Source: Erysipelotrichales bacterium
GTDB taxonomy: Bacteria > Bacillota_I > Bacilli_A > Erysipelotrichales > Erysipelotrichaceae
Assembly (NCBI GenBank): GCA_910575705.1
Contig: CAJTFG010000001.1
Coordinates: 745,217 to 809,216 of the forward strand
Length of the DNA stretch: 64,000 nt
Direction of reading: 5' to 3'
Numbering within the stretch: position 1 is the first letter of the stretch; every line of letters starts with the position of its first letter. The notes below the pieces were generated by a model. That model searched no databases and was not told where the DNA came from. It saw nothing but the letters and a program-made list of their open reading frames with translations. This document shows positions 38,286 through 45,330 of this stretch, piece after piece. A program made the position numbers and the translations under genes.

Positions 38286-38393
38286 AATTATATCGATGGA
38301 GCAGAGAATCTTATAATATAAACAATGTGAAAACTATGATAAATATGATATCATATAGTAAACGATTACATTTCCTTTTTATAAAGGGGGAAA

Positions 38394-38510
38394 TAAAAAA
38401 GCTGCACAAGGCAACTCTTTTATATCATCTAAATGATTGCTGCGTAGCAGCGCTTAAGCTAAAGCTTTATTTTAACTCGTTGTGTTATTTTGAATAGTAG
38501 CAAAGCTACA
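38394..38510 (-). ncRNA. tracrRNA of the type II-A CRISPR system
   Basis: Read on the minus strand, a 5' hairpin GTAGC-TTT-GCTAC leads into the anti-repeat ATTCAAAATAACACAA, complementary to the core of the CRISPR repeat. A CGAG bulge and TTAAAAT follow, pairing with the repeat's first bases GTTTTA. Downstream are AAGCTTTAGCTTAAGC (nexus), GCTGC-TAC-GCAGC, and a final GTTGC/GCAGC hairpin ending in T6 at about 38395. Its promoter is at 38516-38544. It is divergent from cas9 and directly adjacent. It would guide repeat processing by RNase III and form the dual guide with crRNA. Confidence 0.85.
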
Positions 38511-38518: not shown

Positions 38519-38544
38519 ATAACGAATAAATGGGAAGGGGTCAA
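38516..38544 (-). promoter_or_regulatory. tracrRNA promoter
   Basis: On the minus strand, TTGACC (38544-38539) and TATATT (38521-38516) have a 17-base spacer and would start RNA near 38509. Its -10 overlaps the -10 of the oppositely directed cas9 promoter. Confidence 0.65.
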
Positions 38545-38550
38545 GAGAAA

Positions 38551-41500
38551 ATGAATAAAGTAAGCGGAAATTATAGTATTAGTTTGGATATCGGAACAAA
38601 TTCTGTCGGATGGGCAGTAACCGATCGAAATTATCGTATTTTGAAATACCACGGAAAGAATATGTGGGGTGTTCGTTTATTTGAAGAAGGACAACCGGCG
38701 GCGGATCGCAGGATAAACCGCAGCTCCAGAAGAAGGCTAAAAAGAAGAAAACAGCGCATCGCTTTCTTGAGAGAATTGATCGGAGATATGGTACTTGCCG
38801 AAGATCCGGAATTTTTTGTGCGTCTTGATCATGCGTTTTTGACAAATGAGGATCGCGGATATCGGTATAATCTATTTAATGATAAAGATTTTAAGGATAC
38901 TGAATATTATCAAAACTATAAAACGATATATCACTTGCGAAAAGAACTTTGTGAAAATGACGCAAAGGCAGATCCCCGTTTGATTTATTTGGCGCTTCAT
39001 CATATTATCAAATACCGCGGTAATTTTTTGTATGAAGGTCAGGAATTTGAGGTTACAAGCAATCATCAAGTATTTGAAGATTTAAAAGAAGCGCTGGAAG
39101 CTCTTAAAGAGATGCATGCATGGGATATCGATCTGTCGGAAGACTTGTTAAACGATATGAAAGAAACGCTATGTGATTGCACGATGAAGAAAGCTGAGAA
39201 AAAAGATGCGATCATAGAGCTTTTTGTTGAAAGAGATAAAGATGTGAAGAGGATGATAACGGAAATCGTAAGTCTTTTATTGGGCAATACAGGTAATCTT
39301 ACCAAGCTGTTTCCTAAATCCGGGATACAGAAAGATGAAAAAGATTATAAAACAAGTTTTGACTCTAAGAATTACGATTCTGAGGCAAGCGTTATCGAAT
39401 CCTATCTGCAGGATGATTTTATCATTGTGGAACAATTGCATAGCGTGTATAGCTTCTGTCTTTTACAAGATATTTTAAAAGGGAAAAAATTCATTAGTGA
39501 TGCGATGGTTCAGAAATATGAGGATCATCATAACGATTTAAAGGAACTGAAAGATTTTATAAGGGAACATTATGATGCAGATGTTTATGACCGGCTTTTT
39601 CGAAGAAAAGATATAAAAGGAAATTACTATAGTTATATGCATAATATTCATGATTCCCAAAAGAATAAAACCGCAAAAGATGAATTTTACGCCTATATAA
39701 AAAAGATACTTTCTGATAAAAAAGAATTGGAAGAGCATCCCGTTGTCAAGAAAATTAAAGAAAAGATAGAAGAAGACACGTACTTTCCACGGCAGAATTC
39801 AAAAGATAACGGTGAGATCCCATATCAAATACATCAACAGGAATTGGAAAAAATAATAGAGAATCAAAAGAAATACTATCCGCAGCTTCGTGAAAATGAG
39901 TATAAGATTTTAGCGCTTTTCCGTTTCAGAATCCCTTATTATGTAGGGCCGTTAAATGATCATTCTCATGATGAATTTCATTGGATATCCCGTAAAGGGA
40001 TCCATAAGCCTATACGGCCTTGGAATTTTGAAGAGGAAGTGAATTTGGAAGAGAGTGCAGAAAAATTTATAAAAAGAATGACGAATACATGTACATATTT
40101 AATCGGAGAGCCTGTTGTTCCAAAGTGTTCTTTATTGTATTCGAGATATGAGGTGTTGAATGAGCTTAATAAAATCAAAATAGAAACCCGCATTGCTGAA
40201 AAACCTCAGTGTCTTACACCGGAAGTGAAAGATCGTATTTTGAACGAACTGTTCCTAAAACAGAAAAAAGTTACAAGCAAACATTTTCAGGCATATTTAG
40301 AAAAGAAGCAATACTATGGAAACGGTGATATTATCCGCATCACCGGATTTCAAAAAGAAGATGAATTTGCGTCCTCTTTAGCGCCGTGGATCGATTTTAT
40401 GAACATATACGGTGAAGGATTTAAAAACTCCTTTGAAGAAATTGAAACACTGATTGAATGGCTCACGGTGTATGAAGATAAGAAAATTTTAGAAAAACGC
40501 ATAAAGCAGGAATTTCCGCATTTAAAGAATAAGATTTCTTTGATCTGTAAATTGAAATACAAAGGGTGGGGAAGATTATCTAGAAAACTATTGTGCGATC
40601 TGAAAGGTAGAAGAGACGGTGAGAAAGTCTCTATCATGGATTGTTTGGAGAACACTTCTATGAACTTTATGCAGATCATTACTGATAAGAAGCTTGGTTT
40701 TTATAAATTGATAGAAGAAGAAAATGATTTGGATATCCCAAATGGTATCACTTATCAGATGGTAAATGATTTACAAGGTTCTCCGGCTTTGCGAAAAGCT
40801 GTATGGCAAACGGTGAATATCGTTGAGGAACTGGTACATGTTATGAAAAGAGAGCCGGAAAATATTTTCATTGAATTTGCCAGAGAGGATAAAGAAAAAA
40901 AGCCTACAGATAGCAGAGTAAAAAAATTAAAAAACATGTATAAAAAAATAGAAGAGGATGGTCTTATAGAATATATTAAGGGCACATATCCAGCTTTGCG
41001 TAAAGAAGATGAGCGCAAGGGGAATTTAGAGGAAAGGTTGCATCTCTATTATTTGCAGGAAGGAAAGTGCATGTATACTAGAGAACCGCTGGATATCAGC
41101 AGTTTGCATATGTATGAAGTCGATCATATTTTACCGCAGTCTTATATCAAAGATGACAGTATTGATAATAAAGCGCTTGTGCTGAAAAAAGAAAATCAAC
41201 ATAAAGGAGATCAGCTGTTATTATCCGGGGATATTATAAGAAAGCAAAAAGGATGGTGGGAGCACCTGCATAAATATGATCTGATTAGTGATAAGAAATT
41301 AAAAAATTTGACAAGAATGTACATGAATGAAAAAGAAGAACTGTCTTTTATTAACCGGCAGCTGGTAGAAACAAGACAGATCACAAAACACGTAACTAAT
41401 TTATTTAAAAATCATTATACGAACAGTCAGATCGTAAGTATCAAAGCAAGTCTGTCTAGTATTTTCCGAGAAAAGCATGAATTATATAAAATACGAGAGA

Positions 41501-42555
41501 TCAATGATTATCATCATGCACAAGATGCATATCTGGCGAGTGTAATCGGAACATTTGTGTTAAGAAAATATCCGACTTTACAAAAAGAATTTATATTTAC
41601 GGAATATTCACAGCTAGAAAAAATAAAGAGAAAAGTGAATTCTACAAAGGAACGCTATGGTTTTATCATCAATCAGATGGGAGATAAACAGATCTTTCAA
41701 CATGAGACCGGAGAATTGGTCTGGGATGGGGAAGAAACCTTAAAACGTGTGAAGAAAGCTTTTTCTTATAAGGATTGTTTTATAACGAAAAAAACGGAAG
41801 AAAAACGCGGGCAATTTTTTGATCTTACGATTAGTTCTATGGAAGAATTAAAGTCGACGTTAGAAAAAAATCCGCATAAAGTAATTCCCGTAAACAAACA
41901 TCGCTCTGATGTAAGAAAATACGGCGGCTTTACCGGCTTAGAGTATGCTTACGGTATTGCGATAGAGTATACGATCAAAGATAAAATAAAAAGAACGATT
42001 CTTAATGTGCCGATCCATCTTGTAGGCCATGAAGAAAAGTTAATGCAATATTTAAAAAAAGAAGCAAAAGCGGATGATATAAAAATTATAAAAGATAAAA
42101 TTCTTTTTCATCAATTATTTGAAACAGATGGTGGCCTTTATACGCTGGCTAGTGCTACGGAATGGCATAATGCCAGACAATTGCTGTTAAGCAAAGCTTC
42201 GCAAGAGATTGTATATCGTTTGTTGAATGGAAGAAATGTATCCAATGACGAAGCAAGAATGTTTTATGATGAATATTTGCAAAAGCTGCATGACTTTTAT
42301 CCGTTAATGAAGGGGGTTTATAAAAAGCTTGAGGAGAATAAGGAGAATTTTATAATTTCGGATAAGAAAGCTGCTATTGTAAAGGAACTATTGAAAATCA
42401 CAAAAGCAAATGCATCTACGGCAAATTTAAATGATGCAGAGTTTAAAATTTCTTCTTCAGTCGGAAGGATGTATAATAAAAAAATGGACTTAAATAAAAT
42501 AGAATTCATTACCCAATCCGTCACCGGCCTATTTACAAAAAGGTATCGCCTATGA
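38551..42555 (+). CDS. cas9: CRISPR-associated endonuclease Cas9 (type II-A)
   Basis: This RNA-guided DNA endonuclease has 1334 residues. All nuclease motifs are intact: RuvC-I LDIGTNSVGWAV (D13), RuvC-II IFIEFARED (E775), HNH YEVDHILPQSY (H859, with D858 and N882), and RuvC-III NDYHHAQDAYLA (H989, D992). An Arg-rich bridge helix (RRINRSSRRRLKRRKQRI) follows RuvC-I. The length, csn2 and gene order place it in II-A. ATG 38551 lies downstream of a GGAAGGGG site and starts at the canonical NYSISLDIG; ATG 38530 is too early for the mapped promoter. It overlaps cas1 by ATGA. The PAM is unknown. Confidence 0.97.
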   Translation: MNKVSGNYSISLDIGTNSVGWAVTDRNYRILKYHGKNMWGVRLFEEGQPAADRRINRSSRRRLKRRKQRIAFLRELIGDMVLAEDPEFFVRLDHAFLTNEDRGYRYNLFNDKDFKDTEYYQNYKTIYHLRKELCENDAKADPRLIYLALHHIIKYRGNFLYEGQEFEVTSNHQVFEDLKEALEALKEMHAWDIDLSEDLLNDMKETLCDCTMKKAEKKDAIIELFVERDKDVKRMITEIVSLLLGNTGNLTKLFPKSGIQKDEKDYKTSFDSKNYDSEASVIESYLQDDFIIVEQLHSVYSFCLLQDILKGKKFISDAMVQKYEDHHNDLKELKDFIREHYDADVYDRLFRRKDIKGNYYSYMHNIHDSQKNKTAKDEFYAYIKKILSDKKELEEHPVVKKIKEKIEEDTYFPRQNSKDNGEIPYQIHQQELEKIIENQKKYYPQLRENEYKILALFRFRIPYYVGPLNDHSHDEFHWISRKGIHKPIRPWNFEEEVNLEESAEKFIKRMTNTCTYLIGEPVVPKCSLLYSRYEVLNELNKIKIETRIAEKPQCLTPEVKDRILNELFLKQKKVTSKHFQAYLEKKQYYGNGDIIRITGFQKEDEFASSLAPWIDFMNIYGEGFKNSFEEIETLIEWLTVYEDKKILEKRIKQEFPHLKNKISLICKLKYKGWGRLSRKLLCDLKGRRDGEKVSIMDCLENTSMNFMQIITDKKLGFYKLIEEENDLDIPNGITYQMVNDLQGSPALRKAVWQTVNIVEELVHVMKREPENIFIEFAREDKEKKPTDSRVKKLKNMYKKIEEDGLIEYIKGTYPALRKEDERKGNLEERLHLYYLQEGKCMYTREPLDISSLHMYEVDHILPQSYIKDDSIDNKALVLKKENQHKGDQLLLSGDIIRKQKGWWEHLHKYDLISDKKLKNLTRMYMNEKEELSFINRQLVETRQITKHVTNLFKNHYTNSQIVSIKASLSSIFREKHELYKIREINDYHHAQDAYLASVIGTFVLRKYPTLQKEFIFTEYSQLEKIKRKVNSTKERYGFIINQMGDKQIFQHETGELVWDGEETLKRVKKAFSYKDCFITKKTEEKRGQFFDLTISSMEELKSTLEKNPHKVIPVNKHRSDVRKYGGFTGLEYAYGIAIEYTIKDKIKRTILNVPIHLVGHEEKLMQYLKKEAKADDIKIIKDKILFHQLFETDGGLYTLASATEWHNARQLLLSKASQEIVYRLLNGRNVSNDEARMFYDEYLQKLHDFYPLMKGVYKKLEENKENFIISDKKAAIVKELLKITKANASTANLNDAEFKISSSVGRMYNKKMDLNKIEFITQSVTGLFTKRYRL

Positions 42556-43421
42556 GCTGGCGAACGGTCGTGGTGACAAAGCAATCGAAGTTAAGTTATA
42601 AGAGCGGACATCTTATTATCCGTAACGAAGAAGTTACTATGATTCATTTATCTGAGATCAATACGATCATAGTGGATTCTACTGCTGTATCTATAACTTC
42701 CTATTTGATATGTGAATTATTGAAGGAAAAGATAAAGCTGCTGTTCTGTGATGAAAAATGTAATCCGATCGGCGAGGTCATTCCATATTACGGTGCGCAT
42801 AACACGAGCAAACGTATCTTGCAGCAAACGCAATGGAAAAAGGAAAGTCTGGAGTATATCTGGACAAGGATCATTTATGAGAAAATAAGCAATCAATCGG
42901 ATGTGATGAAGAAGTTTGAGATCTCCGGTTGGGAAAAGCTAAGGGAATATCTTCAAAATTTGAAAATAGGCGATATGACGAATCGGGAAGGACATGCGGC
43001 CAAAGTTTATTTTAATGCATTATTCGGCAAGTCTTTTTCCCGCGATCAAGATTCGGATATCAACGCTGCTTTAAATTACGGATATAGCATTTTACTTTCT
43101 AATTTTAATAAAGAGATTTGCGCAAACGGATATTTAACACAATTAGGCATGAAACATAAAAATGAATTTAATCCCTTTAACCTTACATCGGATCTCATGG
43201 AACCGTTTCGGGTTTTGGTCGATGAGATCGCTTATCTTAACATAGATAAAGCATTTAATCATGAATATCGTTTTGATTTGATCGATGTGTTGAATAAAAA
43301 GGTAAGAATAGACGGTAAAGAGCAGTTTTTGACAAATGCGATCAGCATCTATGTAAAAAGTGTTTTTAAAGCAATAGAAACACAAGATATAAAAGAACTA
43401 AAGTTCTTTGAATATGTATGA
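42552..43421 (+). CDS. cas1: CRISPR adaptation integrase Cas1
   Basis: This 289-residue subunit of the Cas1-Cas2 spacer integrase has an N-terminal beta domain (SGHLIIRNEEVTMIHLSEI). The helical catalytic domain carries the conserved Glu in NREGHAAKVYFNALFG and the His/acid pair in the region KHKNEFNPFNLTSDLMEPFR. The start overlaps the cas9 stop (ATGA) and the stop overlaps cas2. Confidence 0.96.
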   Translation: MSWRTVVVTKQSKLSYKSGHLIIRNEEVTMIHLSEINTIIVDSTAVSITSYLICELLKEKIKLLFCDEKCNPIGEVIPYYGAHNTSKRILQQTQWKKESLEYIWTRIIYEKISNQSDVMKKFEISGWEKLREYLQNLKIGDMTNREGHAAKVYFNALFGKSFSRDQDSDINAALNYGYSILLSNFNKEICANGYLTQLGMKHKNEFNPFNLTSDLMEPFRVLVDEIAYLNIDKAFNHEYRFDLIDVLNKKVRIDGKEQFLTNAISIYVKSVFKAIETQDIKELKFFEYV

Positions 43422-43738
43422 GTTACCGTTATATGAGGATCATTGTGTTCTTTGATTTGCCGTCTGTTACTTATCATGAAAAAAAGGTTTATGTGAAATT
43501 CCATGATTTTCTGGATAATGAAGGATTTATTATGCTGCAGGAAAGTGTTTATACGAAATTAGTATTAAATGGTTCGGTATCTAAAAGCGTAATGAAAAAG
43601 GTAAGGGATAATGCCCCTTCTAAAGGATTGGTTCAGGTTTTGACAGTGACAGAAAAGCAGTTTGCGCAAATTGAATGCATTACGGGAAGTTATCATTCGA
43701 ATAAGATGGAAAGTGAAGAAAGGTTAGTTATCCTATGA
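43418..43738 (+). CDS. cas2: CRISPR adaptation protein Cas2
   Basis: This 106-residue ferredoxin-fold partner of Cas1 begins near the strand MRIIVFFDLPSVT, with the conserved Asp, and contains NEGFIMLQESVYTKLVL. Translation may start at ATG 43418 (ATGA overlap with cas1) or at ATG 43433, which would give the common MRIIVFFDLP start. It overlaps csn2 by ATGA. Confidence 0.95.
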   Translation: MSYRYMRIIVFFDLPSVTYHEKKVYVKFHDFLDNEGFIMLQESVYTKLVLNGSVSKSVMKKVRDNAPSKGLVQVLTVTEKQFAQIECITGSYHSNKMESEERLVIL

Positions 43739-44424
43739 TCATGAGAATACGGGGATATGATATGGATATTGCGATTGAAGAGAATCAAAATGTTCTTTTG
43801 TGTATCCTTAATAAGAAGTTATATAGAAAAGTTATCGCAGATATGGAAGGTTTGATTGACGGAGAGGATGACAATGAGATCGTTATAGAAGATGACGATG
43901 CATTGTTGGACTATGATAAAGATGTGGTTTGTATTAGCGATTATTTCCATTTAGATTGTAACAATCGACAGCTATTGAATTTACTGGATAAAAAAGCAGA
44001 AAAAATGATCGTTCAAAGTCTTGATGATAATTTAGAATTTGAGATTTTATACAAGAAATTAACGCATGAGCTGCAAAAGGTTTTATTAGACTTGGAAATG
44101 GATATCGAGTATAGAAGTGACTTTGATATAGGTGAATTTTTAAAAATGGTCGATCTTAGATTTGCTCGGGGAAATACCAAAAATGTATTAGAACAACTAT
44201 ACGGATATTTAGATGTTATTTCTTGCCTTCGGTCTGTTAAATTGATTGTATTAGTAAACTTGCGCGCTAATTTTTCTATGGACGAAATATCACTAATATT
44301 TAAATATATGTCTTATAAAAAAATGAAATGGATATGTATTGAAGGAACAGATTGTGATATGATAGATGCAGAAAAGAAGTATTTAATAGATGAGGATCTA
44401 GTTGAATTTTCCTATTCAAAATAA
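43735..44424 (+). CDS. csn2: CRISPR-associated protein Csn2
   Basis: This 229-residue Csn2 is the ring-forming, dsDNA-end-binding adaptation protein that defines subtype II-A. Recognisable segments are the acidic region DNEIVIEDDDALLDYDKDVVCISDYFHLDCN and the C-terminal KLIVLVNLRANFSMDEISLIFKYM. Its final codons (YSK-stop and the bases around them) are complementary to the CRISPR repeat, see the separate entry at 44412-44427. A strand-internal extended -10 (44355-44363) may drive the array. Confidence 0.9.
   Translation: MIMRIRGYDMDIAIEENQNVLLCILNKKLYRKVIADMEGLIDGEDDNEIVIEDDDALLDYDKDVVCISDYFHLDCNNRQLLNLLDKKAEKMIVQSLDDNLEFEILYKKLTHELQKVLLDLEMDIEYRSDFDIGEFLKMVDLRFARGNTKNVLEQLYGYLDVISCLRSVKLIVLVNLRANFSMDEISLIFKYMSYKKMKWICIEGTDCDMIDAEKKYLIDEDLVEFSYSK
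44355..44363 (+). promoter_or_regulatory. candidate promoter of the CRISPR array inside csn2
   Basis: TGATATGAT is an extended -10 that would start RNA near 44370, about 98 bases before repeat 1. The short leader downstream shows no better promoter. There is no good -35. Confidence 0.3.
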
Positions 44425-44427
44425 CAC
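44412..44427 (+). other. second anti-repeat at the csn2 3' end
   Basis: CTATTCAAAATAACAC is identical to 16 bases of the tracrRNA anti-repeat. It is also the reverse complement of GTGTTATTTTGAATGG in each CRISPR repeat except for one position that would be a G-U pair in RNA. It spans the last codons and stop of csn2, 40 bases before repeat 1. Confidence 0.85.
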
Positions 44428-44467
44428 CGGTGTCGTGGCTGAAAAAAGCATAAAACTTTTATTTGAG
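44425..44467 (+). promoter_or_regulatory. CRISPR leader
   Basis: Only 43 bases separate csn2 from the first repeat. The leader ends in ATTTGAG directly against the repeat, the leader-anchoring sequence known from one group of type II-A systems, where Cas1-Cas2 integrates new spacers. The array therefore grows at this end. Confidence 0.75.
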
Positions 44468-45295
44468 GTTTTAGTGTTGTGTTATTTTGAATGGTTCCAA
44501 AACATGCCAACCTTTTTGTATGTAATAATGCAGGTTTTAGTGTTGTGTTATTTTGAATGGTTCCAAAACATCGATCAGCATACCCTGAATAAAGTCTTTG
44601 TTTTAGTGTTGTGTTATTTTGAATGGTTCCAAAACTCAAATAGAAAGATGGAGACAATGGTGGGAGTTTTAGTGTTGTGTTATTTTGAATGGTTCCAAAA
44701 CCGGACAGCTGCGTCTGCTGGCTCACGATACGTTTTAGTGTTGTGTTATTTTGAATGGTTTCAAAACCCCTCTTCTTAGATTGTGGGATGGGCAAAAGTT
44801 TTAGTGTTGTGTTATTTTGAATGGTTCCAAAACTGAATTCGAAGTTGAAAGCTTCACAGGCTGGTTTTAGTGTTGTGTTATTTTGAATGGTTCCAAAACG
44901 ATGCCGCCTGGTTCATGTCTTTGCCTGAAGTTTTAGTGTTGTGTTATTTTGAATGGTTCCAAAACACTGGATGGCGGCAGGAGAGCTCGTTGACGGTTTT
45001 AGTGTTGTGTTATTTTGAATGGTTCCAAAACATAACACAATATCCATTAACGGCGGAATGTGTTTTAGTGTTGTGTTATTTTGAATGGTTCCAAAACAAG
45101 TCTTGTCTTTGATGCTCGTTGTGATCAGTTTTAGTGTTGTGTTATTTTGAATGGTTCCAAAACCTCTCCGTTGCGCGCAAGAATATCTTGTTGGTTTTAG
45201 TGTTGTGTTATTTTGAATGGTTCCAAAACGATCAATCGCAAGAATCGGCATTCCGTAGTGTTTTAGTGTTGTGTTATTTTGAATAATATTAAAGT
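44468..45295 (+). CRISPR. CRISPR array, 13 repeats and 12 spacers
   Basis: The 36-base repeat begins GTTTTAGTGTTGTG and ends GAATGGTTCCAAAAC. Repeats start at 44468 and every 66 bases after that to 45260, so every spacer is exactly 30 bases. Repeat 5 (44732) has T for C near the end (GGTTTCAAAAC). The last repeat (45260) is degenerate after its first 25 bases, marking the leader-distal end. tracrRNA complementarity shows that the plus strand is the crRNA strand. I see no spacer matching elsewhere in this window. Confidence 0.98.
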
Positions 45296-45330
45296 ATATT
45301 CATTTTGTTAGGCAATATCATATAAAATAC

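Follow-up and report, generated by a model that had tools for sequence, protein, structure and literature searches.

The 3′ end of csn2 in this type II-A CRISPR-Cas locus holds a 16-nt anti-repeat that is very probably one arm (arm A) of the array leader, whose RNA hairpin would mask the first CRISPR repeat and favor the newest spacer. The segment was found in the window, i.e., the whole 64,000-nt stretch of DNA analyzed here. At the level of sequence, this reading builds on complementarity to repeat 1, two leader arms, conservation in three arrays of the genome, and covariation with the repeat in relatives. The locus has the gene order cas9, cas1, cas2, csn2, and array, and includes a tracrRNA, as in type II-A systems. 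From the list of open reading frames and Pfam, cas9, cas1, and cas2 occupy 38530–43738 (+ strand), followed by csn2 (43735–44424, +), in which the Pfam domain Cas_Csn2 extends to residue 222 of 229. The array (44468–45296, +) comprises 13 repeats with a spacing of 66 nt, starting with repeat 1 at 44468–44503. The tracrRNA is encoded on the − strand at 38390–38503 (approximate ends), with its anti-repeat at 38497–38482 and the bulge junction AACGAG at 38481–38476. The final repeat (45261–45296) is degenerate, with decay beginning after GTTTTAGTGTTGTGTTATTTTGAATA, which is common for the oldest repeat. Downstream of the array lies an ordinary ribosomal protein L10 leader (Rfam RF00557, 46618–46742).

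The segment CTATTCAAAATAACAC (44412–44427, +) comprises the last three codons and the stop of csn2 (TAT TCA AAA TAA) followed by CAC, and matches the tracrRNA anti-repeat at all 16 nt, as a preliminary description of this DNA had noted. Its proposed full-length pairing to repeat 1 also held when counted: 16 of 16 positions, including one G-U, pair with GTGTTATTTTGAATGG (44479–44494, repeat nt 12–27). The segment ends 40 nt before repeat 1, and 51 nt separate the paired arms. A chance match had been considered improbable, and indeed 0.06 matches with ≤2 mismatches are expected by chance in the whole window, while exact 14-nt matches genome-wide were all located in arrays, tracrRNA, or array leaders. 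The Csn2 product ends in SYSK, past the usual end in relatives, whose Csn2 proteins mostly end near IDENLNEF. The preliminary idea that the segment shaped the Csn2 C terminus was thus half right, in that the terminal SYSK looks like translated leader sequence, as a by-product.

The leader and repeat 1 together are predicted to fold at −36.7 kcal/mol (z −4.7 relative to shuffles) into a three-way junction. In this predicted fold, arm A pairs with the 3′ half of the repeat, arm B with its junction (44447–44467, +) pairs with the 5′ half, and a small hairpin (44428–44441, +; loop GUCGUG) is nested between the two arms, so that repeat nt 1–27 are nearly all paired to the leader and only the 3′ tail of the repeat is free. 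This prediction supports the earlier proposal that an RNA entering from upstream would fold repeat 1 into a tracrRNA-free hairpin. Arm B ends in ATTTGAG, the type II-A leader end, and folds resembling a three-way junction recur in many relatives. Predicted binding to the repeat in trans was tighter for the tracrRNA (−30.6 kcal/mol) than for the leader (−22.8 kcal/mol), hence any block would have to be a kinetic one, or depend on earlier formation of the cis hairpin. The array promoter would lie inside the csn2 end, where a possible extended −10 element, TGATATGAT (44355–44363, +), is conserved across three leaders with one change in the copy on contig C5. A simple sigma-70 scan listed no + strand promoter, and no strong −35 box was seen.

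Two further arrays of the same genome, on contigs C2 and C5 (L009 3068–4076 and L010 147–826, − strand), have no adjoining cas genes; in each, the same anti-repeat lies 51 nt away from the stretch of the first repeat to which it pairs. They share the same leader and near-identical repeats (variants GAATAGGTAC and GAATAGTTCC), and it is in its 3′ portion that the repeat differs among the three arrays. When the three leaders were aligned, homology extended from ~44344 up to the array, which outlines a leader unit (44344–44467, +) made of ~80 nt from the 3′ end of csn2 and the 43 nt that lie between this gene and the array. Identity of the two copies to the window leader was 100% and 94% in arm A and 95% and 93% across 44428–44467, and dropped to background further upstream in csn2 DNA (44% and 52%); the csn2 tails of both copies are broken by stops. 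The sole arm A substitution, a C to T change in the C5 copy, keeps a G-U pair. Since cas-less copies retain the segment, and its distance to repeat 1 is kept while the csn2 stop moves (see below), we consider it to be a leader element and not, as first described, an element of csn2. Within the C5 array, two neighboring spacers are identical (GTTTTCCAATTCAGCAAAATCCTATCTATG; L010 ~615–750, − strand), from either a recent duplication or a double uptake, and the contig end beside this array (L010 1–100, − strand) may contain the beginning of a transposase gene from a mobile element.

Next, we evaluated leader-repeat pairing across type II-A loci of the same order and class, gathered through Cas9 searches as a first set of 32 arrays and a later set of 23 (55 in total), with Kandleria vitulina, Sharpea, Thomasclavelia, and Traorella massiliensis among the relatives. 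A Csn2 search of genome contigs for close relatives gave no match, and a DNA pattern combining the leader end with the repeat identified 15 loci, two of which (L101 and L108) had no repeat copy within the next 70 nt. Two plasmid loci (L162 and L164) had no usable array, and pCAGO (L161) was left out as an apparent laboratory vector. Runs of at least 13 pairs are frequent in the window when G-U pairs are unlimited, and carry no information given the T-richness of the repeat; we therefore relied on shuffles and on own-versus-foreign comparisons. Specifically, leader positions −90 to −5 were paired with the first repeat of the same array and compared to dinucleotide shuffles (p ≤ 0.05), with DNA at −190 to −100 as control. 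A MAFFT leader alignment misplaced L047 and L081 and was left out of the pair counts.

Leaders beat their shuffles in 23 of 32 arrays of the first set (mean z −3.0; control DNA +0.09) and in 20 of 23 of the second (mean z −3.0; control 0.03), leaving 9 and 3 arrays, respectively, that missed p ≤ 0.05. In the first set, leaders mostly paired better with their own repeat than with foreign ones. Across the 55 arrays, arm A is mostly found ~40–60 nt ahead of repeat 1. The upstream gene, in contrast, has its stop anywhere from −16 to −148 (two cas-less arrays excluded), and this stop falls inside arm A in only 20. Judged from these sequences, leader-repeat pairing is conserved and covarying across related II-A systems; the comparison of csn2 ends in related loci proposed in the preliminary description thus found the complementarity present in relatives rather than absent from them. 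The leaders of L060 and L061 instead form a long self-hairpin with neither repeat nor tracrRNA complementarity, and perhaps handle the extra repeat in another way.

By analogy with published II-A leader work, the hairpin would act in this organism by blocking tracrRNA and benefiting the newest spacer. A promoter within the csn2 end would transcribe the array together with its leader, and the two arms would then clamp nearly the whole of repeat 1. The clamped repeat would keep tracrRNA off, so that no useless leader-derived crRNA would be made, and processing would be steered to repeat 2, making the newest spacer the first to mature. A role as a mimic feeding Cas9 or RNase III, or as an attenuator, is possible but unneeded; what has been documented for such hairpins is a block of tracrRNA at repeat 1.

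Three other explanations of the segment can be weighed against the same data. If the anti-repeat were a DNA element for spacer acquisition, i.e., a Cas1-Cas2 or Csn2 site near the leader-repeat junction, the RNA fold would be incidental. The leader does end in the II-A junction ATTTGAG, where acquisition proteins act, and the segment is conserved in arrays that must go on acquiring spacers. However, published II-A junction determinants sit at the leader end, and arm A covaries with the repeat as base pairs and retains G-U pairs, which fits RNA, and together with arm B and the nested hairpin it makes up a single RNA fold; we thus view an acquisition element as unlikely. Alternatively, the hairpin could attenuate transcription or be processed to part the cas-gene mRNA from the array, consistent with its strength, its position between csn2 and the array, and the expectation that csn2 read-through would form it. 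An intrinsic terminator scan at the hairpin found no T tract and made no terminator call, and the two cas-less arrays keep the hairpin with no csn2 gene upstream, which together make this role very unlikely.

The 16-nt identity to the tracrRNA anti-repeat might also mark a fossil second tracrRNA, as the preliminary description had suggested, or a stray duplication of the anti-repeat into csn2. Neither a lower stem, nor a nexus, nor a terminator follows after 44427, so that the segment lacks a tracrRNA body, the real tracrRNA lies at 38503–38390, and at the same place the leaders of relatives hold anti-repeats fitting their own divergent repeats. We consequently regard a fossil or duplication as barely credible: the two segments are identical because both pair with the same repeat.

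A separate question is the small hairpin between the arms, whose loop is likely a docking site for tracrRNA, an explanation that would supplement the leader hairpin. Either tracrRNA, with Cas9, would be brought to the leader and passed on to repeat 2, or the loop would keep the tracrRNA toehold off repeat 1. The loop is conserved as GUCGUU in many Erysipelotrichales. In favor of docking, a position-blind scan of leaders against tracrRNAs in the first set repeatedly found it complementary to the anti-repeat/bulge junction of the tracrRNA, and in relatives (L046–L158) this matched element lies roughly at positions −22 to −45 relative to repeat 1. The loop/tracrRNA pairs covary: UCGUUG/CAACGA, UCGUUA/UAACGA, UCGCUA/UAGCGA, UCGGUA/UACCGA, UUACUAUGU/ACAUAGUAA, and UCGUUAUGU/ACAUAACGA.

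As the idea was drawn from the first set, the test was then run on the second, in which 8 of 16 loops reached p ≤ 0.05 (mean z 1.70; Fisher χ2 86.0 on 32 df), with a signal along the tracrRNA that peaked only at −8 to +3, i.e., at the anti-repeat/bulge junction. When tracrRNAs were permuted among leaders, the observed mean was reached in 0 of 5000 permutations, and the same held when each distinct tracrRNA window was represented by a single array. Two loops noted before the corresponding tracrRNA was located also fit it, namely UCAUU/AAUGA in L104, a double change from UCGUU/AACGA, and CACAA/UUGUG in L157. An S. pyogenes-type tracrRNA was looked for in the sampled class and not present there, and Listeria was used instead: in Listeria monocytogenes, loop CUUGCUAUG matches tracrRNA CAUAGCAAG over 9 bp. 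We also considered the loop as a repeat-like relic and rejected this, as both tracrRNA bulge letters were complementary to the loop in 41% of 27 cases (~6% expected), and the repeat does not match the bulge. Finally, the loop element was predicted to be more open than the remaining leader in 20 of 25 cases.

On the other side, the match in the window itself is weak: its loop UCGU (44433–44436) is homologous to the tracrRNA-complementary UCGUU loop of relatives, but is complementary to tracrRNA ACGA (38480–38477, −) over only 4 bp, which is not significant (z −0.39). The match is absent in about one-third of arrays (L089, L090, L143, L153, L160, and L100), L163 and L160 showed no clear tracrRNA-matched loop, some pairings are short (5–6 bp), and the covariation statistics control relatedness only partly. 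The leader of L050 has no significant pairing with repeat 1, yet its hairpin loop UCGGUA matches its own tracrRNA UACCGA, meaning that the two leader features are separable. Taken together, the comparison of ~50 relatives suggests that many II-A leaders carry a loop that fits the tracrRNA of the same system. We found no account of such a loop in the literature searched, which covered Liao et al. 2022 through papers citing it, and its novelty is thus provisional.

Combining both features, we lean modestly toward a bifunctional II-A leader RNA, in which the arms would imitate tracrRNA and mask repeat 1, and the loop would imitate a bulge-extended repeat and capture tracrRNA. If so, the leader would both bar tracrRNA from the extra repeat and pass it to the repeat of the newest spacer, supplying a missing step in newest-spacer preference. 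The covarying loop makes it testable how the leader hairpin speeds tracrRNA binding at repeat 2, could serve to adjust crRNA levels in engineered arrays, and is, across the family, the part most worthy of experiments. The arms extend a known RNA mechanism to Erysipelotrichales-type gut bacteria, and the natural copies outline a minimal leader.

Among known systems, the closest is the II-A leader-repeat hairpin (Liao et al. 2022, Nat Microbiol 7:530, as cited in PMC12080349 and PMC13187072), in which leader RNA likewise pairs with the first repeat. According to these two papers, the hairpin formed with the first, extra repeat keeps tracrRNA off and prevents extraneous crRNA, and also lets the newest crRNA mature faster, possibly via contacts with the second repeat. 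Unlike the hairpin as described there, the window has two arms around a nested hairpin, with arm A running through the csn2 stop, and the nested loop of relatives fits tracrRNA. In type VI CRISPR-Cas13, too, a hairpin between the leader and the first repeat blocks extraneous crRNA, but it involves another effector and no tracrRNA, with no first-spacer benefit reported (PMC13187072). Type II-C systems face the same problem, as their extra repeat yields an extraneous crRNA, but solve it with terminators, guide-trapping hairpins, or mutated repeats, and not with a hairpin between the leader and first repeat. Compared to the tracrRNA anti-repeat, the window segment has the same 16 nt, but would act in cis, with no tracrRNA scaffold, nexus, or terminator downstream. 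Overall, the window element, ordinary in kind and informative in its setting, fits the II-A leader-repeat hairpin in all features that can be tested from sequence.
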